From a virus: a stretch of DNA of 64,000 bases. Below, piece by piece: positions 597 to 15,926 of the stretch; position 1 is the first letter of the stretch, and each line of letters opens with the position of its first letter. Location of the stretch: IMG/VR virus record IMGVR_UViG_3300025141_014429, positions 1-64,000 of that record; one strand, written 5' to 3'. The notes below the pieces were generated by a model that worked only from the letters and a program-made list of their open reading frames with translations, searched no databases and was not told the origin of the DNA. Position numbers and translations under genes: made by a program.

Positions 597-910
597 TGAT
601 CGATCCAAATCTATGTTTCTCAGCGACTAATGAAATAATGAATATTGCCAAGTCAATAGTCATGACTTTCAAGCCGGGTTCAGACTATGTAACTGAATCA
701 GATCTTTATAAATATATTGCTGATGAAATGAGTAAGATTGAAAATAGTTGTAGTTCTGACGTAAGAGAAGGCTACACACGACATATTCTAGGCAAGTTTC
801 CAATCTGGATATCAGATGAAGCTTATAAGCGGATACGTCTGACAGAAGTTAAGTCAACACTTTCGAAGCTTAGAGGTGCTGCCAAGTCACACGTGCAAAA
901 TATCACATAA
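596..910 (+). CDS. Hypothetical protein, 104 aa
   Basis: This mixed alpha/beta-looking soluble protein has no motif I recognise. It starts at an ATG overlapping the upstream stop (TAATG) with GGAGGTGAGT as ribosome site, so translation is probably coupled to the preceding gene. Its last codons overlap the CGTGCAAA element of the next promoter (892-921), showing how tightly the promoter array is packed. Confidence 0.8.
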   Translation: MIDPNLCFSATNEIMNIAKSIVMTFKPGSDYVTESDLYKYIADEMSKIENSCSSDVREGYTRHILGKFPIWISDEAYKRIRLTEVKSTLSKLRGAAKSHVQNIT

Positions 911-921
911 CCTATTATAAT
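892..921 (+). promoter_or_regulatory. Array promoter 1 (CGTGCAAA-N16-TATAAT)
   Basis: CGTGCAAA at 892-899, 16 bp, then TATAAT at 916-921. The leader carries ACCAACCAA and AAGGAG before the gene at 958. It overlaps the 3' end of the preceding gene. Confidence 0.85.
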
Positions 922-957
922 ATAAACACATACCAACCAACTAATAAGGAGTTTATT

Positions 958-1155
958 ATGTTAAAATATTTCAAGACACTTAAACAGGCACAAAAATATG
1001 CAGACAATAATTGCGGATCTAAAGAATTGATGGTCATCATTGATAGAGAAGCAAAAGAATATGGCGACGACTGTTATTGCGTCGTTGACCAAGCAGGCAT
1101 CAATCACCTAGACCAAATGAATTGGGACTATAGGGTGTTTGAAGTCTGGAATTAA
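958..1155 (+). CDS. Hypothetical protein, 65 aa
   Basis: A small soluble protein with three cysteines and a tryptophan-rich C-terminus. It has its own array promoter and an AAGGAGTTTATT ribosome site. I recognise no family. A structured RNA segment (1158-1244) begins 3 bases after its stop codon, so that RNA would be the 3' UTR of this message. Confidence 0.8.
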   Translation: MLKYFKTLKQAQKYADNNCGSKELMVIIDREAKEYGDDCYCVVDQAGINHLDQMNWDYRVFEVWN

Positions 1156-1157
1156 AA

Positions 1158-1244
1158 CTCCGTGGTTGGTGTTTACAGACGGCTAGAAGGTCGTCGGAGA
1201 GAGAGCTGGTTACTCTCGGGTATGGGTGGGCAAAAAACATCAAC
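1158..1244 (+). ncRNA. Candidate structured RNA A (pseudoknot-like, anti-leader sequence)
   Basis: CTCCG 1158-1162 can pair with CGGAG 1195-1199. GTTGGTGTTT 1165-1174 can pair with AAACATCAAC 1235-1244 (one G-U). The pairings interlock in a-b-a'-b' order. Two small hairpins sit inside: GACG/CGTC at 1178-1195 and GAGAG/CTCTC at 1201-1217. The 5' strand reads AACTCC-G-TGGTTGG-TGTTT, the antisense of the consensus array leader (AAACA..CCAACCA..GGAGTT). No U-run follows, so it may be a 3' UTR element rather than a free small RNA. Seen in sequence; role inferred. Confidence 0.45.
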
Positions 1245-1245
1245 A

Positions 1246-1275
1246 CGTGCAAAAACTGCGGAAGCATATTATAAT
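1246..1275 (+). promoter_or_regulatory. Array promoter 2
   Basis: CGTGCAAA 1246-1253, 16 bp, TATAAT 1270-1275. The leader has TCAACCAATAAGGAG. It drives the gene at 1306. Confidence 0.85.
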
Positions 1276-1305
1276 ATAACTATATTCAACCAATAAGGAG
1301 TTAAC

Positions 1306-1587
1306 ATGAAGTTTCCAACAGGAACACCAAAAGAAGTAATTGAAGGATGTGCTAAGGTCAGTGCAGAAAACGTTCGCAAACTTAAAGAAAAGCTAAAGTT
1401 TCCAGATGTCAGATCATGCGAAGTATGGCTAGAATATGAGGACGGTTCTGAATATACAGTTGATACATTTCTTAATATGGACCTGGATATCGAGGAACAA
1501 ATACGTGAAACATTTGAAGCACCAAATCTAGAAGTAGAAGAAGGTTCAAAGTTAGTCAACTTCAAGTGGAAAGAACTTGGAATATAA
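1306..1587 (+). CDS. Hypothetical protein, 93 aa
   Basis: An acidic, lysine-rich soluble protein without a recognisable motif. A 111-aa frame opposite it is a shadow. The ATG follows AAGGAGTTAAC 7 bases upstream, and its own array promoter ends 30 bases before the start. The next promoter begins 3 bases after the stop, so it is probably a monocistronic unit. Confidence 0.82.
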   Translation: MKFPTGTPKEVIEGCAKVSAENVRKLKEKLKFPDVRSCEVWLEYEDGSEYTVDTFLNMDLDIEEQIRETFEAPNLEVEEGSKLVNFKWKELGI

Positions 1588-1590
1588 ACC

Positions 1591-1620
1591 CGTGCAAAAA
1601 ACAAACCAACCTATTATAAT
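1591..1620 (+). promoter_or_regulatory. Array promoter 3
   Basis: CGTGCAAA 1591-1598, 16 bp, TATAAT 1615-1620. The leader contains ACCAACCAA and AAGGAGTTATT. It drives the gene at 1652. Confidence 0.85.
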
Positions 1621-1651
1621 ATAACTATACCAACCAAATCAAGGAGTTATT

Positions 1652-1939
1652 ATGTACCCAAAAGCTAAATACATTAACATTTTCGAATCTAAGTTTGTGA
1701 GACCAAATGCCACCGGACATGCTGGCGCGACATATGTAACAAACAGTGATAAGATGGTCACCATTCGTCTCGATGCAATTATATCCATACACACAGAGAG
1801 GATCGAATATTCACATCATCGTTATTGCACAGTCACAATGTCAAACGGTTTTAGATATAAAATCACAGAGGAAACAGCAGAAGAGATTCGCCTCTGCTTG
1901 AATATCGATTCTATCCATGAAAAAAGAGGAGAAGAATAA
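1652..1939 (+). CDS. Hypothetical protein, 95 aa
   Basis: A small soluble protein whose middle part looks like a beta-rich fold (RLDAIISIH, then TVTMSNGFRYKIT). It is reminiscent of phage proteins that test a value in a short beta sheet, but I assign no family. It is first in a run of five tightly spaced genes; the downstream 48-aa gene overlaps its stop (TAATG). Confidence 0.8.
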   Translation: MYPKAKYINIFESKFVRPNATGHAGATYVTNSDKMVTIRLDAIISIHTERIEYSHHRYCTVTMSNGFRYKITEETAEEIRLCLNIDSIHEKRGEE

Positions 1940-2085
1940 TGAAAAACTTTATAATAGTCATTACATACAAAGACGGCACCGTCAGAAGACAGCCGTTATT
2001 CGGAACCATTCAACAAGCATCAGCAGCAATTCAAGCCTATGCACTAGTATCCACAATTGACAACGTTTTCTTGCAATTCAAATAG
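1939..2085 (+). CDS. Small protein, 48 aa
   Basis: This short gene encodes a peptide starting MKNFIIVITYKDGTVRR. It begins inside the stop of the upstream gene (TAATG) with an AGAGGAGAAGA ribosome site and ends just before another GGAG. It looks like a two-strand-plus-helix mini-domain. Function unknown. Confidence 0.65.
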   Translation: MKNFIIVITYKDGTVRRQPLFGTIQQASAAIQAYALVSTIDNVFLQFK

Positions 2086-2093
2086 GAGAAATC

Positions 2094-2168
2094 ATGTTAA
2101 TCAAAGTAGTTACATTAGCAAGACATAGACATAACCAACGAGGTGGTAAATGGGAAAGTATACAGTAG
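2094..2168 (+). CDS. Very small ORF, 24 aa
   Basis: ATG preceded by TAGGAGAAATC, giving MLIKVVTLARHRHNQRGG and a few more residues, basic. It overlaps the start of the next gene by 19 bases, so it may be a translational coupling peptide rather than a functional protein. Confidence 0.4.
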   Translation: MLIKVVTLARHRHNQRGGKWESIQ

Positions 2169-2755
2169 ACGACAATAGGTCAATGCAGCTTAACGACAAC
2201 AACGACCGTTACTGGTCATCCAGAGGTATAGACATAGATGATTTCATCTATGACGACGACACAAATAATCTTTCAAAAGGAAATAAAATCATGTTCATCG
2301 AAATAAATAACAAGCTTATCAATCTAGCACATGTTCACTCAATTAGTACAGAGGTGAATAAAGTCGACGTCAAAAGACACGCAATTGAATGGGATCGCAA
2401 CTGGCCTAGACGCACTCAACATCTAGCCGAGATAATTCCGGAATTTACTATCACATTTACTTCCGAACGTTGGGAAGAAAAAGTAATGATTAGTGCTAAA
2501 GTCCACGATCCGGATCGTATAGGTGATACTTACTATCCAAATAGGGGCAACAGCTATTGTAATGTCAATTATAGCTGCTATATTCCAGATGTGGATCTGC
2601 GTTCAGAGACTAAACTCTCCTATGCAACGATTGTATGCGGAGGCGAGGACTTCGATCAGCAAGCAATTAAAAAAGAGATTGAAGCGTCAAGTCATGGGCT
2701 GACACACGCGTATATCAGATCACTTTGTAGACAACACAATCCAGAATCACAATAA
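2150..2755 (+). CDS. Hypothetical protein, 201 aa
   Basis: I do not recognise the family. The first 47 residues are polar and rich in Asp/Asn. An internal in-frame ATG at 2291 is preceded by AAAGGAAATAAAATC and gives MFIEINNKLINL, which also looks like a natural start, so the product may be 154 aa. The body carries several Trp and Cys residues and looks beta-rich. It is fourth in the operon behind promoter 3. Confidence 0.75.
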   Translation: MGKYTVDDNRSMQLNDNNDRYWSSRGIDIDDFIYDDDTNNLSKGNKIMFIEINNKLINLAHVHSISTEVNKVDVKRHAIEWDRNWPRRTQHLAEIIPEFTITFTSERWEEKVMISAKVHDPDRIGDTYYPNRGNSYCNVNYSCYIPDVDLRSETKLSYATIVCGGEDFDQQAIKKEIEASSHGLTHAYIRSLCRQHNPESQ

Positions 2756-2765
2756 AGGAGAAATC

Positions 2766-3191
2766 ATGAAACCAACTAATCAACCACAAGTTAAGTTAAA
2801 AGGAATAGAGTATCTATTGCTAGCCATTCAATCAGATCCGGGTAAGTCTCAACGACATTATCTGCGTAGGCTTTATCAATATAATCATGGTGTGCCATCA
2901 TACAATAATGGAGGCACTAATAACGGATACTTTACCAGTCAAAGTTATCGTGGCGTTTTATGGTACGACGACTCAAACGATCCAGTATCTGCTAAGTATG
3001 AGTGTTACAAATCTGTTAATAGTGTTTTTATGTGCTGGGGTCCTGCGTCTAACTATGCGTATCGATCAAAGTGTTCAGCTATGAAACTGACGCTATCTGG
3101 TCATGAACGTGCTAATAAAGTCAGAGAAAAGCTAGGTCTTGATCCTATCGATTTATTGAATGGAGCTCCAGCGCATGCAAATTGGGTTTAA
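2766..3191 (+). CDS. Hypothetical protein, 141 aa
   Basis: A Tyr/Asn-rich soluble protein of unknown family, with an AAAGGAGAAATC ribosome site 10 bases after the previous stop. The last 18 bases of the gene contain CATGCAAA, which serves as the upstream element of the next promoter. Confidence 0.75.
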   Translation: MKPTNQPQVKLKGIEYLLLAIQSDPGKSQRHYLRRLYQYNHGVPSYNNGGTNNGYFTSQSYRGVLWYDDSNDPVSAKYECYKSVNSVFMCWGPASNYAYRSKCSAMKLTLSGHERANKVREKLGLDPIDLLNGAPAHANWV

Positions 3192-3203
3192 CTACTGTAT
3201 AAT
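3174..3203 (+). promoter_or_regulatory. Array promoter 4 (CATGCAAA variant)
   Basis: CATGCAAA 3174-3181, 16 bp, TATAAT 3198-3203. The upstream box lies inside the preceding gene. The leader has AACCAAGGAACTAAC. It drives the gene at 3231. Confidence 0.8.
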
Positions 3204-3230
3204 ATAAGTGTATATAACCAAGGAACTAAC

Positions 3231-3842
3231 ATGACCATATTCGAAAATCCAGACTTTTATTATAATGACTTAACACATTTAATAACTAATGAAATCATTA
3301 CGTCTATTGAAAAGGGAATATCAGGCGTAGAAGGATATGCGCGATGGAAATATCCTGTCTTCATTGATGCTGAGGACGATCTTATAGATTGGAGCTTTGA
3401 TGTTCAATACGTTGACGACGTTCCTGGTAGAACGTTCGATGTTTGGGCATCTGCAGGTTTCAATGAGGACTACATTCCTGGGGTCACGTTTACAATTGTA
3501 CTACCAAGAGGAACAGCACTAAAAGATGCTGACATAGATTATCCTGAACTATTCGGTTCAGTTGCACATGAGTTGCATCACATTGCTCAGAAGAATGAAG
3601 GCATATGTGAATATGAAGGGGAGGCATATAACGATCAAGTGAGGTACTACCTCAACCCGACAGAGATACCAGCATTTCATATTGGATTTAGAGCGCAGTG
3701 TGCTCTGTCGGGTGCGGACATGGAAACAGAAATGAGATCTTACTTATCTCTTCAGAATATCAACAAAGAAGAAACTAAACTTATCATTGAGTCTTGGATG
3801 AATCCGAGTTTCGAAATAGCTGAGTTGAACTTACTAGTTTGA
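3231..3842 (+). CDS. Putative zinc metallopeptidase (HExxH), 203 aa
   Basis: The motif GSVAHELHHIAQ, roughly residues 108-120, carries the HExxH zinc-binding signature. Acidic residues about ten positions later (EYEGEAY) could supply the third ligand or the catalytic surroundings. There is no signal peptide, so it would act in the cytoplasm or be packaged. A second HExxH protein lies at 33821-34228. Target unknown. The peptidase call rests on the motif alone. Confidence 0.6.
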   Translation: MTIFENPDFYYNDLTHLITNEIITSIEKGISGVEGYARWKYPVFIDAEDDLIDWSFDVQYVDDVPGRTFDVWASAGFNEDYIPGVTFTIVLPRGTALKDADIDYPELFGSVAHELHHIAQKNEGICEYEGEAYNDQVRYYLNPTEIPAFHIGFRAQCALSGADMETEMRSYLSLQNINKEETKLIIESWMNPSFEIAELNLLV

Positions 3843-3845
3843 ACT

Positions 3846-3875
3846 CGTGTAAATAATAAAACCGAACTGTATAAT
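3846..3875 (+). promoter_or_regulatory. Array promoter 5 (CGTGTAAA variant)
   Basis: CGTGTAAA 3846-3853, 16 bp, TATAAT 3870-3875. Leader AACCAATAAGGAG. It drives the gene at 3904. Confidence 0.83.
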
Positions 3876-3903
3876 AAAAGTGTAACCAATAAGGAGAATG
3901 ATA

Positions 3904-4251
3904 ATGATATATCGAAAACTATTCAACTGGATCGACGGTGATGATGCTTGTGAAGTTACATCAATTACGCTCTATTCAGCACATGATACCGGTCATGACG
4001 AAGAAAAAGACTTTATAATCCGTCGACTCAAGAGTCTTCTGGAAACTGGTGTGACAATCCAGAATATTGTACTTTATCTATGTCCCAAAGATGATCGTCC
4101 AAGATATTATCAGCAATTACCCGACAACTATTTGAATGATATCGATTCGCTCTCTAAAGCTATTGACAATCTTTACAGCGATGGACTAGAACTAGCTGAG
4201 GCTATCGAAACGATGACCATCAATGTTAGCATAAAAGAAAATGGACACTAA
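3904..4251 (+). CDS. Hypothetical protein, 115 aa
   Basis: An acidic soluble protein of unknown family. An ATG two codons earlier (3898) lies only one base after AAGGAG, too close to use, so I chose 3904, seven bases after the ribosome site. Own promoter; the next promoter starts 2 bases after its stop. Confidence 0.78.
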   Translation: MIYRKLFNWIDGDDACEVTSITLYSAHDTGHDEEKDFIIRRLKSLLETGVTIQNIVLYLCPKDDRPRYYQQLPDNYLNDIDSLSKAIDNLYSDGLELAEAIETMTINVSIKENGH

Positions 4252-4253
4252 CA

Positions 4254-4283
4254 CGTGCAAATAATAAAACCAATCTGTATAAT
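4254..4283 (+). promoter_or_regulatory. Array promoter 6
   Basis: CGTGCAAA 4254-4261, 16 bp, TATAAT 4278-4283. The leader AACCAACCAAGGAG is an exact target for both anti-leader loops described at 13041 and 13249. Confidence 0.87.
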
Positions 4284-4310
4284 ATAAGTGTAACCAACCA
4301 AGGAGCAATC

Positions 4311-4553
4311 ATGATACCACTAACACAAATAACATGGGCGTATATCTCAAGACATGGCGATGAAAGACGTGGACGAAAGACAAAGACCATTTATCTTAAT
4401 GCTAGTCACATCTTTAAACTAGAAGAGGAAGAACACGGTACTCGTATATGCTACTCGACAAATGGCAATTGTACAGTAGAAGAGTCACCAGCACAAATAT
4501 CATCATTAATGTTACGAGTACATCAGACTCGTAGTGCAGCAACAAACTATTAG
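4311..4553 (+). CDS. Hypothetical protein, 80 aa
   Basis: A basic N-terminal half (RHGDERRGRKTKT) precedes an acidic stretch (LEEEEHGTR). Unknown family. Strong CCAAGGAGCAATC ribosome site. It heads a five-gene run that ends at about 5306 with stop/start overlaps. Confidence 0.78.
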   Translation: MIPLTQITWAYISRHGDERRGRKTKTIYLNASHIFKLEEEEHGTRICYSTNGNCTVEESPAQISSLMLRVHQTRSAATNY

Positions 4554-4562
4554 GACTTAGTC

Positions 4563-4733
4563 ATGAAAAAGAATGAAGAAATCATAACAACAATTAAAGC
4601 AGCCAGAGGAATAGAGCGAGAAGAACACTTCAAGAACGGAGGATCATTAGTCTCTTGGAGAGGTGGAACTCGAACAGTCCAGCGGAACAAAAAAACCTAC
4701 AGCCGAAAAGGGAAATCAAAATGGAAACAGTAA
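4563..4733 (+). CDS. Small basic protein, 56 aa
   Basis: The peptide reads AARGIEREEHFKNGG followed by SWRGG and a Lys/Arg-rich tail, suggesting nucleic-acid or ribosome contact. It starts 9 bases after the upstream stop, with a weak TAGGACTTAG ribosome site. The next gene starts inside its 3' end. I do not recognise a characterised family. Confidence 0.65.
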   Translation: MKKNEEIITTIKAARGIEREEHFKNGGSLVSWRGGTRTVQRNKKTYSRKGKSKWKQ

Positions 4734-4948
4734 AAACAATCATCGAAGCATACGGCATATGCCAGATATGTGAACATAAATATGACGGGTATACTATACA
4801 CTACACTGTAGAGATATCAGGTGTACAGATATATCTTTGTTCTAGTCTTGAAAATTGTTATACATGTGCTAACAGTATCAATAGTAGTAATCCCATATCA
4901 AGAACAGTAGATGCATTTCGATATCAACAACAAGAAGGAGTAGCATAG
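4721..4948 (+). CDS. Hypothetical Cys-rich protein, 75 aa
   Basis: Start chosen at the ATG at 4721 because AAAGGGAAATC lies just upstream; an earlier in-frame ATG at 4655 has none. The protein has a CQIC pair near residue 13 and C..C..C residues around LCSSLENCYTCAN, so a small zinc-binding domain is possible. It overlaps the preceding gene by 13 bases and the next by one. Confidence 0.7.
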   Translation: METVKTIIEAYGICQICEHKYDGYTIHYTVEISGVQIYLCSSLENCYTCANSINSSNPISRTVDAFRYQQQEGVA

Positions 4949-5103
4949 TGTATTATCAAATATGGAACAAGAAAACAGAAGAGGTCGAGTGCACATGTCC
5001 TGACTACAATTCAGCATTGCGGTTTATCGAAATGATTGGAGATTCAGATCTAACAATCAAAATGATTCCGAAAGAAGATCACCCACTCAGGAGAGGACGA
5101 TGA
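4948..5103 (+). CDS. Small protein, 51 aa, GTG start
   Basis: GTG start preceded by AAGGAGTAGCATA and overlapping the upstream TAG by one base. The product has Cys-x-Cys (ECTCPDY) near its middle and a basic tail. It ends in an ATGA overlap with the next gene. Unknown function. Confidence 0.6.
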   Translation: MYYQIWNKKTEEVECTCPDYNSALRFIEMIGDSDLTIKMIPKEDHPLRRGR

Positions 5104-5306
5104 CATTCCAAGTAGGTGATCTGGTCGAGCAGAAATCGAATGGAACAAAGTGGCTAGTTACAAAAACACAACTCAGTGCATACTCCCCTCAGGGCTATTG
5201 TATCACGATTCAAAGATCGACTTTTCTTAAGACCGGTCATGGTGGATCAAGGACTGACTATCCAATATATTATGACCTGTTTTCTCGTGCAAGTGCGTGC
5301 AAATAA
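5100..5306 (+). CDS. Small SH3-like protein, 68 aa
   Basis: The FQVGDLVEQKSNGTKWLV opening resembles small SH3/Tudor-type barrels that start with a GDxV turn, like the proteins at 16703 and 16945. Start overlaps the upstream TGA (ATGA) with AGGAGAGGACG upstream. The 3' end carries the CGTGCAAA of promoter 7. Fold guess only. Confidence 0.65.
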   Translation: MTFQVGDLVEQKSNGTKWLVTKTQLSAYSPQGYCITIQRSTFLKTGHGGSRTDYPIYYDLFSRASACK

Positions 5307-5325
5307 TAAAACCAAACTGTATAAT
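5296..5325 (+). promoter_or_regulatory. Array promoter 7
   Basis: CGTGCAAA 5296-5303, 16 bp, TATAAT 5320-5325. Leader ACACACCAACTAAAAGG. It drives the gene at 5356. Confidence 0.85.
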
Positions 5326-5355
5326 ATAAACACACACCAACTAAAAGGAAATAAC

Positions 5356-5550
5356 ATGACACAATCACAATTTAGAGAAATCCTTAGAAGAGTTCAGAGC
5401 CTTCACACCGATTTTGAAGAAGGTATATCAGACGAAGCAGCATATGATATGGCACTCTTTATTCTCGATGATAACCCGGGTCTGAAAGAATATATCAATA
5501 ACAATTGCGGTGCCTCCGATGCAGTCGGCTGGCTCATGTGTGAAATGTAG
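5356..5550 (+). CDS. Hypothetical protein, 64 aa
   Basis: Helical acidic protein (LRRVQSLHTDFEEGISDEAAYDMA split over two helices). Start taken at 5356 after AAAAGGAAATAAC; the longer frame runs back through the promoter. It shares the ISDEAAYDMALFIL / ISEEAYSAIIEYLL pattern with the gene at 5717, so the two are probably distant paralogues. Confidence 0.75.
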   Translation: MTQSQFREILRRVQSLHTDFEEGISDEAAYDMALFILDDNPGLKEYINNNCGASDAVGWLMCEM

Positions 5551-5559
5551 GAAGATAAC

Positions 5560-5712
5560 ATGACTAGACTATATAAAAACTGGACAGTACACAACCTAGT
5601 ATCACACCCACTATCAGAGATCGCGTATCTGCTAGGTTTCTCAGAAGAAACATACAACTGGATACATGACGTCTCAATACCCAAACATAAACCCGGAACA
5701 GGGAGAGGATAA
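5560..5712 (+). CDS. Small protein, 50 aa
   Basis: Begins MTRLYKNWTVHNLVSHPLSE and ends in a KHKPGTGRG tail. AGGAAGATAAC ribosome site, 9 bases after the previous stop. It looks like a short helix-rich, possibly membrane-peripheral peptide. No family assigned. Confidence 0.65.
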   Translation: MTRLYKNWTVHNLVSHPLSEIAYLLGFSEETYNWIHDVSIPKHKPGTGRG

Positions 5713-5716
5713 AACT

Positions 5717-5956
5717 ATGAATACAGAATCATTATATAATTTCATCATGCTTTGTCTTAAAGATGATGATGGAATATCAGAGGAAGCTTATAGTGCTATA
5801 ATAGAATATCTCTTATCACAAAATGAACAAGCAATTGTAATCGAAATAAATAGTAAGTGCAAGTCAGCAAATGGGCGGAGGTATATACCTGATGATACTC
5901 CAACTGATTTATTTGAAGATACTCGAGCACGACTAAACAAATTAAACATTAGATAG
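5717..5956 (+). CDS. Hypothetical protein, 79 aa
   Basis: Start chosen at 5717 behind GGGAGAGGATAAAACT. Acidic helical protein sharing an ISEEAYSAIIEYLL segment with the protein at 5356. Third gene of the promoter 7 unit. Function unknown. Confidence 0.72.
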   Translation: MNTESLYNFIMLCLKDDDGISEEAYSAIIEYLLSQNEQAIVIEINSKCKSANGRRYIPDDTPTDLFEDTRARLNKLNIR

Positions 5957-5963
5957 ACATGTA

Positions 5964-5993
5964 CGTGCAAAACACAAAACCACTTTGTATAAT
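5964..5993 (+). promoter_or_regulatory. Array promoter 8
   Basis: CGTGCAAA 5964-5971, 16 bp, TATAAT 5988-5993. Leader CTAACCAATAAGGAGTTATT. It drives the gene at 6024. Confidence 0.86.
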
Positions 5994-6023
5994 ATAAATG
6001 TATCTAACCAATAAGGAGTTATT

Positions 6024-6398
6024 ATGTTAAACATCCAACCAGAAAAAATACTATACACAGGACCAGAAGGCTGCAGCTATCATGCATGGAACTACGAAAT
6101 AAAGCCTAATCTTGTAGGGTCAATCGACGAACACTCTGATACTCTAGATATTACAAGGAAGCTCGACGAACATTTGTTGTATAGAAGAGATGACGTAGAA
6201 TCTTTAAAACAATACATCCATGTCATAGTTGAACTATCAAAAATACATGGATTTACTCACATTGTTGACGAGGAAATGGGAATACTAATCGATGAACCTA
6301 AGCCACTCATCGAAGTAGTCAACGAGAGCTTAAAAGGTTGGCCGACAGGAGCTCAACTAAGAGTGCTCCAAGGTTTAGATATATCACATTTAGCGTAA
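6024..6398 (+). CDS. Hypothetical protein, 124 aa
   Basis: Acidic soluble protein with no motif I know, monocistronic between promoters 8 and 9. AAGGAGTTATT ribosome site at ideal spacing. Confidence 0.78.
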   Translation: MLNIQPEKILYTGPEGCSYHAWNYEIKPNLVGSIDEHSDTLDITRKLDEHLLYRRDDVESLKQYIHVIVELSKIHGFTHIVDEEMGILIDEPKPLIEVVNESLKGWPTGAQLRVLQGLDISHLA

Positions 6399-8706: not shown

Positions 8707-8736
8707 CGTGCATAACCTCTTGGGCTCCTGTATAAT
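8707..8736 (+). promoter_or_regulatory. Array promoter 13 (CGTGCATA variant)
   Basis: CGTGCATA 8707-8714, 16 bp, TATAAT 8731-8736. Leader CAACCAACCAAGGAGTTATT. It drives the gene at 8764. Confidence 0.83.
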
Positions 8737-9082: not shown

Positions 9083-9112
9083 CATGCATATTTCAAAACC
9101 ACTTATTATAAT
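9083..9112 (+). promoter_or_regulatory. Array promoter 14 (CATGCATA variant)
   Basis: CATGCATA 9083-9090, 16 bp, TATAAT 9107-9112. Leader ACCAACCAATGGAG. It drives the gene at 9142. Confidence 0.78.
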
Positions 9113-10153: not shown

Positions 10154-10162
10154 ATCAAAACA

Positions 10163-10192: not shown

Positions 10193-10223
10193 ATAAACAC
10201 ATACCAACCAATAAGGAAACATT

Positions 10224-10346: not shown

Positions 10347-10358
10347 CCACTGTATAAT
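10329..10358 (+). promoter_or_regulatory. Array promoter 18
   Basis: CGTGCAAA 10329-10336, 16 bp, TATAAT 10353-10358. Long leader with two AACCAATAA copies before AAGGAG. It drives the gene at 10401. Confidence 0.86.
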
Positions 10359-10400
10359 ATAAACACCTAACCAATAATAAACAACCAATAAGGAGTCAAT

Positions 10401-10832
10401 ATGACTATTTCAAATAAAACAACCCTTCAAGAGCTTATCAAACTCGGTCTATTTTCAGAAGCTGATATCGAAAAGTTCAATAAAAAACTTCAAAGAGCAG
10501 CTGATAGCCAAGCTCGTAAAGCCTTAGTAGATGGCACCATGTCAGCTATCAAAGCTCTAGTTCAATCAGAAGTCCATAATGGAAATAAGTATTGGTCTGT
10601 TAAAACAGCAGCTCATAGCCTTGGTTTCATGAGTTATATCCAAGCTGATAGAGGGATCGTTCTCAAAGCTCTTACAAAGTTAACTGAGGAAGGGTATTTA
10701 ACTAAGATTGGTCTTAAAACCGTCGAAGGTAAGCTAACAGAGTTAACGCCTAAACAAGTTAACGCATTCCAAATCCGTTATGTAGTTACCCCCGTTGAAG
10801 CTGAAGGCGCTATCGTTCCAGTGGCCAAGTAA
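10401..10832 (+). CDS. Helical protein with repeated LQELIKLG module, 143 aa
   Basis: The first 45 residues (TLQELIKLGLFSEADIEKF...KLQRAADSQARKAL) recur in the proteins at 14265 (TLQELVDSGVITAADVAKFEKRL) and 11302 (TLKELVDLGLISQEM). They define a small paralogous module. The remainder looks like a winged-helix-type domain (LKALTKLTEEGYLTKIGLKT). I infer a DNA-binding or regulatory role; not proven. Confidence 0.78.
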   Translation: MTISNKTTLQELIKLGLFSEADIEKFNKKLQRAADSQARKALVDGTMSAIKALVQSEVHNGNKYWSVKTAAHSLGFMSYIQADRGIVLKALTKLTEEGYLTKIGLKTVEGKLTELTPKQVNAFQIRYVVTPVEAEGAIVPVAK

Positions 10833-10842
10833 GGCCCTGGAG

Positions 10843-10869
10843 GTGGGAGGACTTTAACCGGTCCCCCAC
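10843..10869 (+). terminator. Hairpin after gene 10401-10832
   Basis: GTGGGAGGAC 10843-10852 pairs with GTCCCCCAC 10861-10869 (one bulged A). A T-rich stretch (TTTTATTTT) starts 10 bases later. Likely terminator, slightly imperfect. Confidence 0.5.
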
Positions 10870-10887
10870 TGCCCTCACTTTTATTTT

Positions 10888-10917
10888 CGTGCAAAATCAA
10901 TATCATAGTTGTATAAT
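10888..10917 (+). promoter_or_regulatory. Array promoter 19
   Basis: CGTGCAAA 10888-10895, 16 bp, TATAAT 10912-10917. Leader CATCAACCAAAGGA. It drives the genes at 10945 and 11302. Confidence 0.86.
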
Positions 10918-10944
10918 ATAAACACATCAACCAAAGGATATATT

Positions 10945-11292
10945 ATGAAATACTTTTCAATCGACTATCGTTCACCCCCTTCTGGAATGGGACAAATCAT
11001 TGACACCAAAAAACCTGAGAAGGTTGGAGATCAATATAACTTCATTCTTATTGACTACGGTACTGATCCTCATGAAGATCCCAGCTATGTCATGACAAAA
11101 TACTTCTATTCAGAACAAGCAGCAGAAGAAGGATGGGCAGGAGCAGTTCTTCCCCAAATATTTCAATTCCTTCGAGACTCCAAAGTTACACATGTCCATG
11201 ACAGTGAGCTATCATATGAAGAGGAAGGGGCAGACGAGGATGGGTATTTCCTATTAGATCGCTGGATCGAAATTATGAATTCATATTTATAG
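10945..11292 (+). CDS. Hypothetical protein, 115 aa
   Basis: Start at 10945 after CAAAGGATATATT. Acidic soluble protein, aromatic-rich, no motif recognised. Followed by a small gene with a GGAGACAAA ribosome site 9 bases later. Confidence 0.75.
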   Translation: MKYFSIDYRSPPSGMGQIIDTKKPEKVGDQYNFILIDYGTDPHEDPSYVMTKYFYSEQAAEEGWAGAVLPQIFQFLRDSKVTHVHDSELSYEEEGADEDGYFLLDRWIEIMNSYL

Positions 11293-11301
11293 GAGACAAA
11301 A

Positions 11302-11454
11302 ATGGATGTCAGTGCACTTACGCTCAAAGAGTTGGTAGACCTAGGTCTGATATCTCAGGAGATGATCATACGAATTCAAACCCGTGCTGATCGTCAACTT
11401 GAGAGGATGGCACAAAACCATAAGTTGAGCAATTACATAAAACGAAAAAAATAA
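11302..11454 (+). CDS. Small protein, isolated LxELVxLG module, 50 aa
   Basis: SALTLKELVDLGLISQEMII and a basic tail (IQTRADRQLERM, KRKK) match the N-terminal module of the proteins at 10401 and 14265 without the C-terminal domain. It may act as a partner or competitor of the longer paralogues. TAGGAGACAAAA ribosome site. Confidence 0.68.
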   Translation: MDVSALTLKELVDLGLISQEMIIRIQTRADRQLERMAQNHKLSNYIKRKK

Positions 11455-11469
11455 ACTTTTTTTGAAGTT

Positions 11470-11521
11470 GGTCATTTTTTGACCGGTTTCCAATACGGAG
11501 CTCAAAATAATATGGTATAAT
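11470..11521 (+). promoter_or_regulatory. Sigma-A promoter with GGTCA/TGACC inverted repeat
   Basis: The inverted repeat GGTCA 11470-11474 / TGACC 11480-11484 is followed by a -10 element TATAAT at 11516-11521 within ATATGGTATAATATATC. There is no CGTGCAAA box. The same arrangement, base for base over much of its length, lies upstream of the paralogous sigma gene on the minus strand (17771-17822). The leader carries ACCAACCAACAAGGAG. Distinct promoter class, probably controlled at the repeat. Confidence 0.65.
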
Positions 11522-11552
11522 ATATCTATACCAACCAACAAGGAGTTTATTT

Positions 11553-12017
11553 ATGAATATCAACATTAATGAATATATCAAACTAGTTCACCATATCGCT
11601 CACAAATACCGATGGGCAGGAGCCGCTCATGAGGACTTGGTCAGTGCTGGGATAGAGGGACTAGTTGAGGCTAAGGAGAGATTTGACCCTGAAATGGGGA
11701 ACAAATACATTACTTATGCACATTGGTGGGTCCGAGCTTATATCCAAAAAGCTGTCAATTCTCACATCAAAAATAATCATAAATCATTGAATCAAGAGGA
11801 TAGCCTAGGGCGTCAGGGAATAGATAAGGTTGCTGCTGAATATGAAGCTGATACCGAATCATTGATGGCACCTTATATTGAAAGACTCTTAGCTGTATTA
11901 GCTCTATCTGAGCGTGTTATTATTTCAAAAAGATTTGATTTAAAAGGTCCGATACCCACCAAAAGAGAAGAGGTCCTTGAGGAAGCCCGATCTGAGCTAT
12001 CAGCATTGAAGGTATAA
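11553..12017 (+). CDS. Region-2-only sigma factor A (gp55-like), 154 aa
   Basis: Residues about 20-70 form sigma-70 region 2: EDLVSAGIEGLVEAKERFDP, then YITYAHWWVRAYIQKAV, which is the -10 recognition and melting helix with its conserved aromatics. The C-terminus keeps the first helix of region 4 (LALSERVIISKRFDL), but the helix-turn-helix that would follow is replaced by a short helix. T4 late sigma gp55 is likewise region 2 without region 4. Paralogue at 17258-17740; an orphan region 4 protein lies at 43065-43295. It probably directs host RNA polymerase to one phage promoter class. Confidence 0.85.
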   Translation: MNININEYIKLVHHIAHKYRWAGAAHEDLVSAGIEGLVEAKERFDPEMGNKYITYAHWWVRAYIQKAVNSHIKNNHKSLNQEDSLGRQGIDKVAAEYEADTESLMAPYIERLLAVLALSERVIISKRFDLKGPIPTKREEVLEEARSELSALKV

Positions 12018-12053
12018 AACCCCGATGGTTAGCTAAAAAAAGATAAATAAATA

Positions 12054-12083
12054 CGTGTAAAACTCAATATTTAGAAGTATAAT
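12054..12083 (+). promoter_or_regulatory. Array promoter 20 (CGTGTAAA variant)
   Basis: CGTGTAAA 12054-12061, 16 bp, TATAAT 12078-12083. A long A/C-rich leader precedes the gene at 12141. Just upstream, AACCCCGATGGTTAG (12018-12032) resembles the anti-leader loop of RNA B. Confidence 0.82.
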
Positions 12084-12140
12084 ATAACCATATAATAAAA
12101 CAACCCAACAAATCCAAATCAACATACCAAGGAAACAAAT

Positions 12141-13019
12141 ATGACAAATTTTTTAGAAGGAAGCAAGACTGTTAGACCCGAGACACCTATCATTGACAGT
12201 GTAGCAGAATTTACGCCTGATGCACTTAATCAAGACGGTATTTGGGCACATGCTTTCGATGAGTCAAACGACATTGAGATACCAGCGTACTTAGACAATC
12301 CTATCAAAACAGGACTAAGTTATATGGACTACATTCTTGGTGACGCAGGGTTCTATCCAACACAGTGTACCATCTTAACAGGTGACCCTGGATGTGGAAA
12401 GACTACTATGGCTCTCGAGATGGCATCTGCTATGCGTGGGCTCGGCTCTAATGTCGCATTTGCTTCCTGTGAGATGCGAAGAGAGATGGTCGCTAAATTT
12501 CAAAAGCGGCTCAAAGCAGAACATCCGATCAAAGTCATTACAGACAAGATCGTGCGAACTGCTAGAGGTTCTACCCGTGTTCCCTTTGCATCTCACGTTC
12601 CAACTCTCATTGAGACATGCGAGCGAATCCGTGCGCAAGATCCTGATAAGCCGTTCGTCCTCATTATTGATTCCCTTCAGGAGTTAGATGATGGACACTT
12701 CGGGACCGGGCGCAAGACATCGAAGACAGCATATCGTGCGCTGGACCGACTCAACAGTTACTGCAAGCAGACAGAATGTACTTTGATAGTCATTGGTCAG
12801 GTAACAAAGTCGGGTCAAATGGCCGGTAGCAATGATATCAAGCATCTCATCGATGCACATCTTCATCTATCAGTAGAACAAAAGGATGAAGAGATGCGAG
12901 GTGCTAGAATACTCCAAGCAACAAAGAATAGGTTTGCTGGATGCGGTCAGCTGGTGTTCCTCCAGATGAAGTCCGAAGGATTGCAGGAAATCGCACGTCT
13001 CAAGGAGAGCTCTTTATAA
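12141..13019 (+). CDS. RadA/Sms-like RecA-fold ATPase, 292 aa
   Basis: Walker A GDPGCGKT at residues 81-88, Walker B FVLIIDS at 172-178, and a KNRFA sequence at 262-266 matching the KNRFG motif diagnostic of RadA. It lacks both the N-terminal zinc finger and the C-terminal Lon-like domain of bacterial RadA, so it is a minimal core. Known RadA proteins are branch-migration helicases in recombination. By analogy this protein would help phage recombination-dependent replication. DnaB- or RecA-type relatives are less likely given KNRF. Confidence 0.85.
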   Translation: MTNFLEGSKTVRPETPIIDSVAEFTPDALNQDGIWAHAFDESNDIEIPAYLDNPIKTGLSYMDYILGDAGFYPTQCTILTGDPGCGKTTMALEMASAMRGLGSNVAFASCEMRREMVAKFQKRLKAEHPIKVITDKIVRTARGSTRVPFASHVPTLIETCERIRAQDPDKPFVLIIDSLQELDDGHFGTGRKTSKTAYRALDRLNSYCKQTECTLIVIGQVTKSGQMAGSNDIKHLIDAHLHLSVEQKDEEMRGARILQATKNRFAGCGQLVFLQMKSEGLQEIARLKESSL

Positions 13020-13030
13020 GTTATTAGATG

Positions 13031-13116
13031 TGTGTCGTTCATTGGTTGGTTACCTTTATGGGCGGTAGGTAAGAACGACACAAACTCCGATGGTTGGACC
13101 TACCGCCCACTTTTTT
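13031..13116 (+). ncRNA. Candidate RNA B: perfect pseudoknot with anti-leader loops and U-run
   Basis: Stem 1: TGTGTCGTTC 13031-13040 with GAACGACACA 13073-13082. Stem 2: TGGGCGGTAGGT 13059-13070 with ACCTACCGCCCA 13098-13109. The order 1-2-1'-2' is a classical H-type pseudoknot, followed by TTTTTT 13111-13116. Loop ATTGGTTGGT 13041-13050 is the exact complement of ACCAACCAAT. Loop AACTCCGATGGTTGG 13083-13097 is complementary to CCAACCA and to the SD GGAGTT of the array leaders. Located in the 3' UTR of the RadA-like gene, one base before the tRNA. Confidence 0.7.
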
Positions 13117-13117
13117 A

Positions 13118-13191
13118 GCACCAATAGCTCAAATGGAAAGAGCATCCGCCTTCTAAGCGGACGGTTGCAGGTTCGAGTCCTGCTTGGTGTA
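13118..13191 (+). tRNA. tRNA-Arg (anticodon UCU)
   Basis: Full cloverleaf: acceptor GCACCAA/TTGGTGT (one G-U), D stem GCTC/GAGC, anticodon stem TCCGC/GCGGA with loop CTTCTAA, T stem GCAGG/CCTGC with loop TTCGAGT, discriminator A13191. Anticodon TCT at 13152-13154 reads AGA, the dominant arginine codon of the AT-rich genes to the right. CCA is not encoded. It lies between two pseudoknot RNAs and has no promoter of its own in between. Confidence 0.95.
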
Positions 13192-13204
13192 CAGACTTAA
13201 ACAT

Positions 13205-13278
13205 ACGAATCGATTCTGGGTTCGGGTGCTATGGTAGGATCGGTTCGTTCCTTGGTTGACCATAGCACCCTTTTTTTT
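13205..13278 (+). ncRNA. Candidate RNA C: second pseudoknot with anti-SD loop and U-run
   Basis: Stem 1: ACGAATCGAT 13205-13214 with ATCGGTTCGT 13239-13248 (one G-U). Stem 2: GGGTGCTATGGT 13224-13235 with ACCATAGCACCC 13259-13270, immediately followed by eight Ts. Same 1-2-1'-2' topology and nearly the same stem lengths as RNA B, but unrelated stem sequences. Loop TCCTTGGTTG 13249-13258 is the exact complement of CAACCAAGGA, the SD region of leaders at promoters 6, 13 and 24 and of sigma B. Starts 13 bases after the tRNA. Confidence 0.7.
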
Positions 13279-13279
13279 G

Positions 13280-13309
13280 CGTGTAACTCTCGTGATAACA
13301 AAGTATAAT
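13280..13309 (+). promoter_or_regulatory. Array promoter 21 (CGTGTAAC variant)
   Basis: CGTGTAAC 13280-13287 starts one base after the U-run of RNA C; 16 bp; TATAAT 13304-13309. It drives the gene at 13334. Confidence 0.78.
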
Positions 13310-13333
13310 AACAACACATCCAACGGAGGCTCT

Positions 13334-13519
13334 ATGAAAAGAGGTACACATGTAACAATCACACAACACGAAACTGAAAGTGTGGTGGGTCAACAAGGTA
13401 TTATAACAGCTGCACATTGTGTGACAGGATCTGTGAGATATCATGTCAAAACTGAAACAGCTACATATTATTGTTCAGTCACTCAGCTCAAATTAAGTAA
13501 CGCAATTGCGTGCAAATAA
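13334..13519 (+). CDS. Small beta-rich protein, 61 aa
   Basis: Start at 13334 after AACGGAGGCTCT, one of the strongest ribosome sites here. The MKRGTHVTITQHETES opening and GQQGIITAA resemble a small SH3/KOW-type barrel. Its last codons contain the next promoter's CGTGCAAA. Function unknown. Confidence 0.7.
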   Translation: MKRGTHVTITQHETESVVGQQGIITAAHCVTGSVRYHVKTETATYYCSVTQLKLSNAIACK

Positions 13520-13538
13520 ACATTAAACCACGTATAAT
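13509..13538 (+). promoter_or_regulatory. Array promoter 22
   Basis: CGTGCAAA 13509-13516, 16 bp, TATAAT 13533-13538. It overlaps the end of the preceding gene and drives 13570. Confidence 0.85.
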
Positions 13539-13569
13539 AGATACACACCCAAACAATCAAGGAAATATT

Positions 13570-14169
13570 ATGACCCATACAAAACAACAAGTTCTTGACC
13601 TTCTTCAAGACCCTGACTATGTCGGAGCAGCAATCATTCTTATCGGACAAAATCAGACTCAGGATGAATTGAGAACCAAGCATACCCATAATCTTAATGG
13701 AGAAGGATTCTCAGCCGCATATGCAAAGGTTGGTACAAGGTTTTATGAGTTTGTTACAGGTATTCAAACCTCAACTGGTAAGAAGAAGTGGCAATCCCGA
13801 TCCCTCGCTCACCCAAAAGCTGATCAGATATTTCGTCGTTATATCAACAATCGTGGCTGTAACAATGCTATTGACTATGCTCGTGATATTGCAGCTCTCC
13901 ATTGGAAACAACTAGGTGCTATGTTTGAAGTTGGTTTTACTGTTCCATCATATGACGTTCAAGTTGGAGAACCTGAAGCTGCACCAGCTAAACAAGAACC
14001 AGCACGTATATTGTTGGCTTGCCAGTTTATCAAAGTCAGTGGTAAGGCCGTCCAAGTCAAGATGAATGGGAATGGCAAAAAGATTTGGTTACCAAAGTCT
14101 CAAGTCCAATCAACAGAAGATGGATTGAGTATACCAACATGGTTGGCTTCCAACAAAGGACTCCTGTAA
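13570..14169 (+). CDS. Hypothetical protein, 199 aa
   Basis: Start at 13570 behind CAAGGAAATATT. Two parts are separated by a Pro/Ala/Glu linker (GEPEAAPAKQEPAR). The N-terminal domain of about 135 residues has several Trp and basic residues. The C-terminal domain of about 55 residues (ILLACQFIKVSGKAVQVKM then KKIWLPKSQV) looks like a small beta barrel. Unknown function; the linker and basic faces would fit a nucleic-acid-associated protein. Confidence 0.75.
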   Translation: MTHTKQQVLDLLQDPDYVGAAIILIGQNQTQDELRTKHTHNLNGEGFSAAYAKVGTRFYEFVTGIQTSTGKKKWQSRSLAHPKADQIFRRYINNRGCNNAIDYARDIAALHWKQLGAMFEVGFTVPSYDVQVGEPEAAPAKQEPARILLACQFIKVSGKAVQVKMNGNGKKIWLPKSQVQSTEDGLSIPTWLASNKGLL

Positions 14170-14194
14170 GGGGTCCAACTTCATCTTTCATTTT

Positions 14195-14224
14195 CGTGCA
14201 AAACTCTAATCTAACCCGTATAAT
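14195..14224 (+). promoter_or_regulatory. Array promoter 23
   Basis: CGTGCAAA 14195-14202, 16 bp, TATAAT 14219-14224. The leader CAACAACCAAGGAG is an exact match for the loop of RNA C. Listed elsewhere in this annotation as promoter 24 of the leader comparison. It drives the gene at 14265. Confidence 0.86.
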
Positions 14225-14264
14225 ATAAACACATAATCCAATAACAACAACCAAGGAGAATATT

Positions 14265-14678
14265 ATGTCATTCAATCAAAAAACCCTTCAAGAGCTTGTA
14301 GATTCAGGCGTCATTACAGCAGCTGATGTTGCTAAGTTTGAAAAACGTCTAGCTCGTTTAGATAAGAAAGCAGCTAAGGAAGCTAGAGCAGCTGAAGTCC
14401 TTACCAAAGTTGGAGATGCTTTTCATGAGCTGACCAAGGAAGGTAATCCAACAAAGCATCGTGCAATTTGGGAAAAAGTTGGTCGTGAAGCTCATAGCCG
14501 TGACGAAGTCCTAGATGCTCTTAGAACTCTACGAGATAACGGAGAAGCCCGTACCTATAAGCTTAGTAACAATAACTTTCAAATCTTTTGGGCTCAACCT
14601 CTACCTGTTGTAGAAGAAGCTGATGAAGATGCAGATGCAGAAGCTCTTGCTGTTATCCCTGGTGTTGATGAGGTTTAG
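14265..14678 (+). CDS. Helical protein with LQELVDSG module, 137 aa
   Basis: TLQELVDSGVITAADVAKFEKRL matches the N-terminal module of the proteins at 10401 and 11302. A Lys/Ala-rich helix, a winged-helix-like part (VLDALRTLRDNGEARTYKL) and an acidic tail (EEADEDADAEAL) follow. Architecture like a small DNA-binding regulator with an acidic C-terminal arm. Function inferred from layout only. Confidence 0.78.
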   Translation: MSFNQKTLQELVDSGVITAADVAKFEKRLARLDKKAAKEARAAEVLTKVGDAFHELTKEGNPTKHRAIWEKVGREAHSRDEVLDALRTLRDNGEARTYKLSNNNFQIFWAQPLPVVEEADEDADAEALAVIPGVDEV

Positions 14679-14686
14679 GCCTCATC
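14667..14686 (+). terminator. Hairpin overlapping stop codon
   Basis: GATGAGG 14667-14673 pairs with CCTCATC 14680-14686 around the TAG stop. No T-run follows, so it may protect the 3' end rather than terminate. Confidence 0.3.
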
Positions 14687-14692
14687 ACCTAG

Positions 14693-14722
14693 CGTGTAAA
14701 CATCGAAGTTCAGTTGTATAAT
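14693..14722 (+). promoter_or_regulatory. Array promoter 24 (CGTGTAAA variant)
   Basis: CGTGTAAA 14693-14700, 16 bp, TATAAT 14717-14722. Short leader ACATCAAGGAGATAAC. It drives 14743 and 14932. Confidence 0.84.
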
Positions 14723-14742
14723 ATAAACATCAAGGAGATAAC

Positions 14743-14922
14743 ATGACAATAACACTTAAATCACTTTTCACTGCCTTCATCTCTCTGGTTATGCCAGGAG
14801 TGGGCCAACTCTTCTATGGAGAACTAGGTTGGGCACTATTTTGGTTTGTAACAGCAATCATCACAGGTGGACTTACAATATGGCCATCAGCAATTCACTG
14901 TCTTTTTTTAGCAAACAAATAG
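14743..14922 (+). CDS. TM2-domain-like membrane peptide, 59 aa
   Basis: Two hydrophobic segments. The first ends in MPGVGQLFYGELGWALFWF, matching the PGxGhxYxG turn of TM2-domain proteins; the second is FVTAIITGGLTIWP. It would sit in the inner membrane with a short loop. Perfect CAAGGAGATAAC ribosome site and its own promoter. A role in membrane take-over or exclusion is speculative. Confidence 0.75.
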   Translation: MTITLKSLFTAFISLVMPGVGQLFYGELGWALFWFVTAIITGGLTIWPSAIHCLFLANK

Positions 14923-14931
14923 GAGTATCAC

Positions 14932-15213
14932 ATGAAACTAACAGATCTATCCGCAGCATTAGCTAATCTAACACCGCTAGAACGTACACAAATCGAAGCA
15001 GCAAAGAGTAGCTATATGTTGCATGTTGCTATAGTAACATCTGAATATATTAAGCAAAAGGAAGAGCTGGAAAATTTTGAATTGTTCACCGATCCAGAAG
15101 ATGCCATATCTCAGCAAACACTAGTACTAATCCGTAAGCAGGTCGCAGAGATGGAGATGAAGGTATCACAACTAGCATGTGAGCTGGAGAATCATTTCAA
15201 TATATCAGCGTAA
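14932..15213 (+). CDS. Helical/coiled-coil protein, 93 aa
   Basis: Heptad-like helices dominate (LVLIRKQVAEMEMKVSQLA). Predicted oligomer. Ribosome site TAGGAGTATCAC, 9 bases after the TM2-like gene, suggesting co-expression. Unknown function. Confidence 0.75.
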   Translation: MKLTDLSAALANLTPLERTQIEAAKSSYMLHVAIVTSEYIKQKEELENFELFTDPEDAISQQTLVLIRKQVAEMEMKVSQLACELENHFNISA

Positions 15214-15215
15214 TA

Positions 15216-15245
15216 CGTGTAAAACGATCGATTGACTAGTATAAT
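15216..15245 (+). promoter_or_regulatory. Array promoter 25 (CGTGTAAA variant)
   Basis: CGTGTAAA 15216-15223, 16 bp, TATAAT 15240-15245. Leader ACACACCAACCAAAGG. It drives the lipoprotein gene. Confidence 0.86.
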
Positions 15246-15272
15246 ATAAACACACCAACCAAAGGAAACAAC

Positions 15273-15896
15273 ATGATCACACTACTTATTCTTACAGCAT
15301 GCGGAAACGAAAACCAAATCATTGACACATCCCCACCCTCAGCTAGTGTCGAAGAAGTGACAGAAGAATGTGCACCGGCAGAACAACCTGTCATCAACCT
15401 CACATGTCCGGAAGTGCAGCTAACATGCCCTGAACCGGTTATCAATGTCCAAGTTTCAGCTCCGGATGTACAGGTTGATGTTGCAGCTCCAGATGTCGAT
15501 GTCACTGTGGAAGGCCCTGATATGTCAGGTATAGAAGCAGCAATTGATGAAATGATTGATGCGTTGAGCAGCAATTCTGGCGGCACTTCAGGAGACAAGG
15601 AATGGATATTCTTTGCTAGTGATATAACAGTCGCATCAGGAGATGTTATAACTGCTACAAACACTAGAACCACCGATCTGATCATAACAGAGATAAGACT
15701 ATCCAATACCATTGAATGCTGGATAGAAGGATCTGCAGGTATTATTGCTTACGTTGGGCACAACACCGGTGCACCAACAAATAGTCAACAAGGCTCAAAT
15801 CAACTAAGTCTCCCTATACATCAAGGTGAAACACTATATTGCAGCACCCATGAAAGTGGTGCAGGATACGTATTTGTCAACGGTTACTATCAATAA
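15273..15896 (+). CDS. Phage-encoded lipoprotein, 207 aa
   Basis: A very short signal sequence MITLLILTAC ends in lipobox LTAC with the lipidated Cys at residue 10. Then come a low-complexity acidic region with near-repeats (LTCPEVQ/LTCPEPV, APDVQVDV/APDVDVTV) and a beta-rich C-terminal domain of about 100 residues with two Cys. The unusually short signal is odd but the n/h/lipobox order is intact. T5 Llp shows that such phage lipoproteins can block receptors against superinfection. That role is inferred here. Confidence 0.78.
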   Translation: MITLLILTACGNENQIIDTSPPSASVEEVTEECAPAEQPVINLTCPEVQLTCPEPVINVQVSAPDVQVDVAAPDVDVTVEGPDMSGIEAAIDEMIDALSSNSGGTSGDKEWIFFASDITVASGDVITATNTRTTDLIITEIRLSNTIECWIEGSAGIIAYVGHNTGAPTNSQQGSNQLSLPIHQGETLYCSTHESGAGYVFVNGYYQ

Positions 15897-15926
15897 CATG
15901 CAAATTCTAGATAGGTATAGTATAAT
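15897..15926 (+). promoter_or_regulatory. Array promoter 26 (CATGCAAA variant)
   Basis: CATGCAAA 15897-15904, 16 bp, TATAAT 15921-15926. Leader ATACCAACTAGGAG. Last clear member of the array; it drives the run 15956-16648. Confidence 0.8.

Follow-up and report, generated by a model that had tools for sequence, protein, structure and literature searches.

A fixed-spacer promoter class in an uncultured T4-like phage and a small sigma region 4.2 protein as its candidate reader

Which protein reads the -35 element of a phage promoter that occurs some 26 times with one fixed spacer and with a box other than TTGACA? This question is raised by an array of promoters of the class CGTGYAAA-N16-TATAAT in positions 1-64,000 (hereafter the window) of the 123,028-bp virus record IMGVR_UViG_3300025141_014429, whose record class is linear, often a fragment. 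We characterized the array and its counterparts in related phages, and we describe a small four-cysteine (Cys4) protein with a stand-alone sigma region 4.2 that may be its reader. Besides terminase, portal and baseplate proteins, the record (G000; G- and L-numbers are labels of IMG/VR and comparison records or stretches) encodes a gp55-like late sigma of the T4 kind (G000 70421-71185, L009:6421-7185), and we therefore classed the phage as T4-like. The closest cultured terminases, ~41-44% identical, are those of Microcystis phage Mel-JY01 and Flavobacterium phage immuto.

A promoter class with a fixed spacer

The original prediction of about 26 copies of one promoter with an invariant 16-bp spacer held. 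An exact copy of the pattern YRTGYAWA-N16-TATAAT is found 25 times in the window, from 892 to 15926 and always on the + strand (dinucleotide shuffles: mean 0.06, maximum 1), and the 26th array copy, at 13280, is a variant with CGTGTAAC. TATAAT serves as -10 in 26/26 of these promoters. Because a fixed-gap search could itself create an 'invariant' spacing, TGYAA and TTGAC were counted at every distance from TAYAAT, with no gap preset. This gave the same spacing, with a sole TGYAA peak at gap 17 (31 versus 1.3 expected; neighbouring gaps 1 each). TTGAC remained at background for every gap, and the upstream box, CRTGYAWA, is indeed other than the canonical TTGACA at 16-18 bp. The same box also came first when 5-mers ahead of TATAAT were scanned without a preset pattern, and 25 of the 26 C[GA]TG[CT]A[AT]A boxes in positions 1-16500 are those of array promoters. 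The box lies at the -35 position, and its register can be taken as TGYAAA at 16 bp or GTGYAA at 17 bp from TATAAT.

As had been noted, the promoters precede single genes or short units from 0.9 to 16 kb: an ATG is found 20-57 nt downstream of every one (26/26), and the box usually starts 0-25 nt past the end of the preceding gene. The shared A/C leader was likewise recovered, being A/C-rich and G-poor (A 0.49, C 0.23), with CCAA in 23/26 cases. The array, which is directly observed, is a set of strong promoters, one per small gene or short operon. By analogy, the region would be early or delayed-early. The T4-type late TATAAATA was hardly found, being present before 2 of the 112 non-array genes. 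Two further TTTGTAAA copies reported at 23883 and 58169 are present, and extending the motif search past the window added copies with the same spacing at 104986, 105383, 106526 and 107885, each 24-41 nt upstream of a gene, together with a weaker copy at 66726. A pattern match at 48609, inside a gene, is probably due to chance. Apart from the class with the CGTGYAAA-type box, no TATAAT-linked class was seen in this genome or its relatives. The array is one regulon-like promoter class, as had been proposed. A literature search with the box string returned only unrelated matches among the matches listed.

The 60 nt upstream of each box were also folded. Strong hairpins precede few of them only (10888, 13280, 14195 and 14693), and the idea of a general, mobile promoter/stem-loop cassette was therefore rejected. 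The hairpin at 13220-13279, directly before the variant promoter, is strong and terminator-like, with a T run following it, and is shortly preceded by a tRNA-Arg (13118-13192).

The array recurs in related phages. The same box with the same gap is found in ten IMG/VR records (G001, G002, G003, G004, G006, G007, G009, G013, G014 and G031), where a reversed control pattern gave zero matches. In G032, TTCTGTAAAA is located two bases further upstream (+2 shift), and G024 (IMGVR_UViG_3300042987_004038) harbours 34 copies of CGTGCG-N17-TAnnAT, most at ~4.5-20 kb, with TAGAAT, TATGAT or TACAAT as -10, representing a variant of the same promoter class. Judging from these sequences, the spacing is fixed inside one genome and slightly shifted between lineages, with the core TGY kept. 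The cultured phages tested yielded no promoter class of this kind. Using blastn with the promoter cassette, we reached the cultured jumbo phage Xanthomonas phage XacN1 (L251/L254), an architectural comparator rather than a relative, which has the same layout but with TTGACA (20 copies at the same gap). Its terminal region contains ~25 promoters of the form TTGACA-N16/17-TATAAT, roughly one for each small gene, with a ACACACCAACC-like A/C leader closely resembling that of the window, and XacN1 thus represents a cultured model of the same promoter layout.

The original prediction had left the reading of the box to host sigma-70 or to a phage factor. On the first account, which we regard as less likely than not but as the strongest competitor of the reading favoured below, the host sigma-70 holoenzyme would read the box as a departed -35 (xTGxxA) helped by the perfect TATAAT, and the split sigma and region 4.2 protein described below would act at other promoters at later stages. 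In T4-type phages, host sigma-70 does read dozens of early promoters whose -35 is specific to the phage (GTTTAC in T4). Moreover, a phage needs promoters usable by the unmodified host polymerase, the only strong class found here is the box class, and GTGYAA at 17 bp retains three of the six TTGACA bases. However, none of the copies has changed into TTGACA, the -35 that XacN1 uses in the same layout, and the box persists across phages with GC contents of 0.34-0.45, probably with different hosts.

A sigma-70 split within region 4

Counting the gp55-like late sigma, three sigma-type proteins are encoded by the phage. In the two sigma-70-like proteins of the window (154 and 160 residues), region 2 and the 4.1 end can be aligned, whereas most of region 3 is missing and region 4.2 is absent. 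Relatives have one sigma of ~260 residues, close to primary sigmas across regions 1.2 to 4.1, and a region-4.2 helix-turn-helix follows in 0/80 of the relatives' genes. These large sigmas were found with a profile including relatives; a scan with the two window paralogues alone confirmed none.

A Sigma70_r4 search revealed a separate small gene in 11/15 records, with mainly the 4.2 part matched. In the window, the product of 43068-43289 matches Sigma70 region 4 (PF04545) with 37.9 bits (curated cut-off 24.1) over model positions 12-50 of 50. The two kinds of proteins share out the models between them: Pfam Sigma70_r4 coverage is ~12-50 for the small protein and 1-18 for the large sigmas, and on PHROG 351 the large sigma (469-692) and the small protein (693-725) are exactly complementary, meeting at 692/693. 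Together with the 0/80 count, these matches place complementary sigma regions on two polypeptides, as in a two-subunit sigma. The two parts are observed directly, and the sequence comparison places the break in the sigma-70 of this lineage within region 4, where it separates 4.1 from 4.2.

The small protein is strongly conserved. Among 96 distinct members, TRMR-x-CQ is present throughout, with only I, V or L at the free position, and 95/96 have one four-cysteine pattern. These proteins were collected by TRMR-x-CQ itself. In a 60-sequence alignment collected by homology, T53, R54, M55, R56, C58 and Q59 are invariant, but as TRMR was in the database pattern as well, TRMR variants may have escaped. 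The predicted structure is confident (pLDDT, predicted local distance difference test score, 92.7), and the best Foldseek matches are sigma region 4, on which a ~30-residue core superposes at about 1 Å. In a structural re-alignment, every chain stayed below Z 3, the match being too short to carry weight.

Residues 582-591 of Escherichia coli sigma-70, which we take to be VTRERIRQIE, correspond to VTRMRICQIE in the small protein: E585 is replaced by M and R588 by C, and R584 is kept. In sigma-70, the preference at -33 is shaped by E585 and R588, and that at -31 by R584 (PMC2613000). In the 16-bp register (TGYAAA), -33 would no longer be G, which fits the E585 and R588 changes, but the fit is suggestive only since the register is ambiguous.

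The small protein is found in 36/44 records of the lineage and is encoded on 251 IMG/VR stretches. A tblastn search of 50,697 phage records with the 74-residue protein of a relative (G035) gave no match at E 0.01, and that with the window's own protein gave only weak sigma matches, at E 1 or worse, among the matches listed. In 48 of the 52 prkA loci with room for it, its gene follows prkA at a distance of 2.3-9 kb downstream, and in every case the two genes are on opposite strands. All box-array records holding the prkA-phoH region carry the small protein. The box-array records without it (G002, G003, G006 and G009) are also devoid of prkA and phoH; that stretch is thus not on those contigs, and the absence of the small protein there is uninformative.

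Relatives of the prkA-type kinase were found at 64 IMG/VR loci, the longest of the contigs measuring 293 kb. In the window, three genes at 36012-40511 resemble the bacterial YeaH/SpoVR/prkA (YeaG kinase) stress set, the similarity check bearing on the kinase alone. A host search, in which genome contigs were scanned with PrkA, retrieved two distant contigs of metagenome-assembled genomes and nothing closer.

Weighing the candidate readers

In the reading that we favour as the most economical one, and to which we give slightly less than an even chance, the small Cys4 region 4.2 protein reads the box in trans. CGTGYAAA would occupy the -35 position, and contact to the -10 would fall to region 2, either that of the host sigma or that of the truncated phage sigma. 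With the large phage sigma stopping after 4.1, the Cys4 protein would supply the -35-reading helix-turn-helix in trans; it may bind the box, join RNA polymerase and switch on the array. The reader would come first, from a host-type promoter, followed by the array and then by the sigma. More tentatively still, we propose that a widespread uncultured T4-like lineage possesses a sigma-70 cut inside region 4, whose free 4.2 module, bearing changed recognition residues along with a Cys4 domain (metal or iron-sulphur), would be the trans -35 reader defining the class CGTGYAAA-N16-TATAAT.

Upstream of the reader genes, TTGTTA-N16-18-TAnnnT is present in 17/91 cases versus 1 in shuffles, and that of the window has TTGTTC and TATAAT. 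TGYAA-N17-TAnnnT is found before 10/91 (shuffles 1.2, maximum 7), all ten of which are [TAC]TGTAA, not CGTGY. These promoters bear on a further possibility, namely that the box is a feature of the host, whose primary sigma would be changed in region 4.2 and would favour CGTGYAAA at the host's own promoters as well. It would account for the fixed spacing and the missing TTGACA, but the reader genes of several relatives carry TTGTTA-N17-TATAAT, a more ordinary -35. To our knowledge, the -35 contacts of primary sigmas are nearly invariant among bacteria, which also counts against it, and we consider it very unlikely.

Several further observations weigh against the small protein as reader. The large sigma gene lies behind a box promoter in 20/80 relatives, so that the box needs another reader before that sigma is made; this also favours host sigma-70. 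If the array is immediate-early, the reader must be made first or injected. Four contigs with the small protein lack a detectable box array, entirely so in G028, G030 and G034 and largely in G023, although they may be fragments; a dyad search in the first three revealed no promoter-like pair. The co-occurrence of box and reader could reflect shared descent rather than function. Finally, the Foldseek E-values are weak (0.66 at best), as the matched part spans only ~30 residues.

Another phage or virion protein, a MotA-like activator acting at a -35-overlapping box, might read CGTGYAAA instead, the region 4.2 protein being unrelated. T4 shows that phage proteins are able to replace the -35 contact, and few of the array and early proteins belong to a known family: a Pfam scan of 43 array proteins named essentially one, an ATPase. 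We find this explanation unlikely, because the MotA DNA-binding domain (PF09158) was detected in 0/15 records, which may be fragments, the 43 array proteins include no DNA-binding regulator family identified by Pfam, and the box is at the normal -35 distance, unlike MotA boxes (12 +-1 bp from -10). The ATPase, KaiC/DnaB-like and encoded at 12141-13019, is the only clearly recognisable enzyme among those scanned.

Between the two readers originally put forward, neither is proven. Finding a separate -35-reading module in exactly this lineage argues against host sigma-70, and the stand-alone region 4.2 candidate (43065-43289, - strand) tips the balance moderately toward a phage factor. The question of the box reader can now be put to one small candidate protein. 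If it is the reader, the -35 contact, normally built into sigma, would be supplied by a separate 74-residue protein. This would be a small, naturally occurring case of an exchangeable -35 reader and would explain how these phages come by a promoter class of their own. Box, spacing and reader together would then form a DNA signature for classing the transcripts of uncultured phages.

The features of the window are collected in Table 1. The window sigma genes have their own promoter, unlike the array class, with a TTTTTGACCGG element ~30 bp above an extended -10 (11476-11531, +, and upstream of 17740, -); this element, present at both genes, resembles an operator site for a shared regulator. TTGACCGG is also present upstream of a gene at 20164 (-), which codes for a 178-residue, probably exported protein.

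Table 1. Promoters, sigma-related genes and candidate reader in the window
Feature	Position	Strand	Remark
Promoter CGTGCAAA-N16-TATAAT	892..921	+	
Promoter CGTGCAAA	1246..1275	+	
Promoter CGTGCAAA	1591..1620	+	
Promoter CATGCAAA	3174..3203	+	
Promoter CGTGTAAA	3846..3875	+	
Promoter CGTGCAAA	4254..4283	+	
Promoter CGTGCAAA	5296..5325	+	
Promoter CGTGCAAA	5964..5993	+	
Promoter CGTGCAAA	6401..6430	+	
Promoter CGTGTAAA	6626..6655	+	
Promoter CGTGTAAA	7236..7265	+	
Promoter CGTGTAAA	8178..8207	+	
Promoter CGTGCATA	8707..8736	+	
Promoter CATGCATA	9083..9112	+	
Promoter CGTGCAAA	9399..9428	+	
Promoter CGTGCAAA	9872..9901	+	
Promoter CGTGCAAA	10163..10192	+	
Promoter CGTGCAAA	10329..10358	+	
Promoter CGTGCAAA	10888..10917	+	
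Promoter CGTGTAAA	12054..12083	+	
Variant promoter CGTGTAAC	13280..13309	+	
Promoter CGTGCAAA	13509..13538	+	
Promoter CGTGCAAA	14195..14224	+	
Promoter CGTGTAAA	14693..14722	+	
Promoter CGTGTAAA	15216..15245	+	
Promoter CATGCAAA	15897..15926	+	
Outlying promoter-like copy TTTGTAAA	23883..23912	+	63 nt upstream of open reading frame (ORF)
Outlying promoter-like copy TTTGTAAA	58169..58198	+	31 nt upstream of ORF
Candidate box reader	43065..43289	-	74-aa Cys4 protein, C-terminal stand-alone sigma region 4.2 helix-turn-helix
Truncated sigma-70-like protein 1	11553..12017	+	154 aa, region 2 + 4.1-like end, no 4.2, within array
Truncated sigma-70-like protein 2	17258..17740	-	160 aa, 45% identical to protein 1
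Own promoter of sigma gene 1	11476..11521	+	TTTTTGACCGG element + extended -10 TATGGTATAAT, common to sigma gene 2

Comparison with known systems

The early promoters of T4-type phages (T4, RB69, RB49 and Aeh1) number in the dozens, are strong, have a near-perfect TATAAT and precede early genes or ORFans, as is the case here, and each phage has its own -35 variant (PMC1524935, PMC2988021). The present array has the same many copies (26), strong -10 and position before small ORFs, 'early' being assigned by analogy. In T4, however, the early -35 is GTTTAC at -36 to -31, not CGTGYAAA, and the stand-alone region 4.2 gene found here is absent from the nine known phages tested (0/9, XacN1 included, T4 itself not among them). 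XacN1 shares the one-promoter-per-small-gene layout, with an ordinary TTGACA and no stand-alone region 4.2.

In the sigma appropriation by MotA/AsiA of T4, a DNA-binding protein of the phage stands in for sigma region 4 on the -35 side while the -10 contact is retained, similar to what we propose. MotA middle promoters nevertheless have a TGCTTtA box 12+-1 bp from the -10, compared with TGYAAA at 16 bp here; the MotA domain is absent here, and the candidate is itself a sigma region 4.2. Phage sigmas that redirect the host core enzyme, such as phiEco32 gp36 and 7-11 gp47, are also comparable to our proposal (PMC8948821). The late promoters of 7-11 consist of two parts separated by a 16-bp gap, and gp36 lacks region 4. 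The gp36 promoters, however, are single-element, 7-11 gp47 has its own region 4, and a separate region 4.2 protein is described for neither (PMC8948821).

In the two-subunit sigma SigO-RsoA of Bacillus subtilis, sigma-70 functions are carried by two polypeptides, as here, but that split separates sigma2 from sigma4 (PMC8103513), whereas the present one is within region 4, the small part having a Cys4 module. The minimal single-HTH (helix-turn-helix) sigma of group 2 jumbo phages consists of little beyond the promoter-binding HTH, like the small protein, to which we liken it by its description alone, and is treated as a possible ancestral remnant; the parts of that report available to us describe neither complementarity to a truncated large sigma nor a link to a promoter box (PMC7824862). 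As the minimal single-HTH sigma and the Bacillus two-subunit sigmas are already known, the split sigma is not a new category. What is new, as far as the sequences indicate, is a split sigma-70 with a separate Cys4 region 4.2 protein in this lineage.

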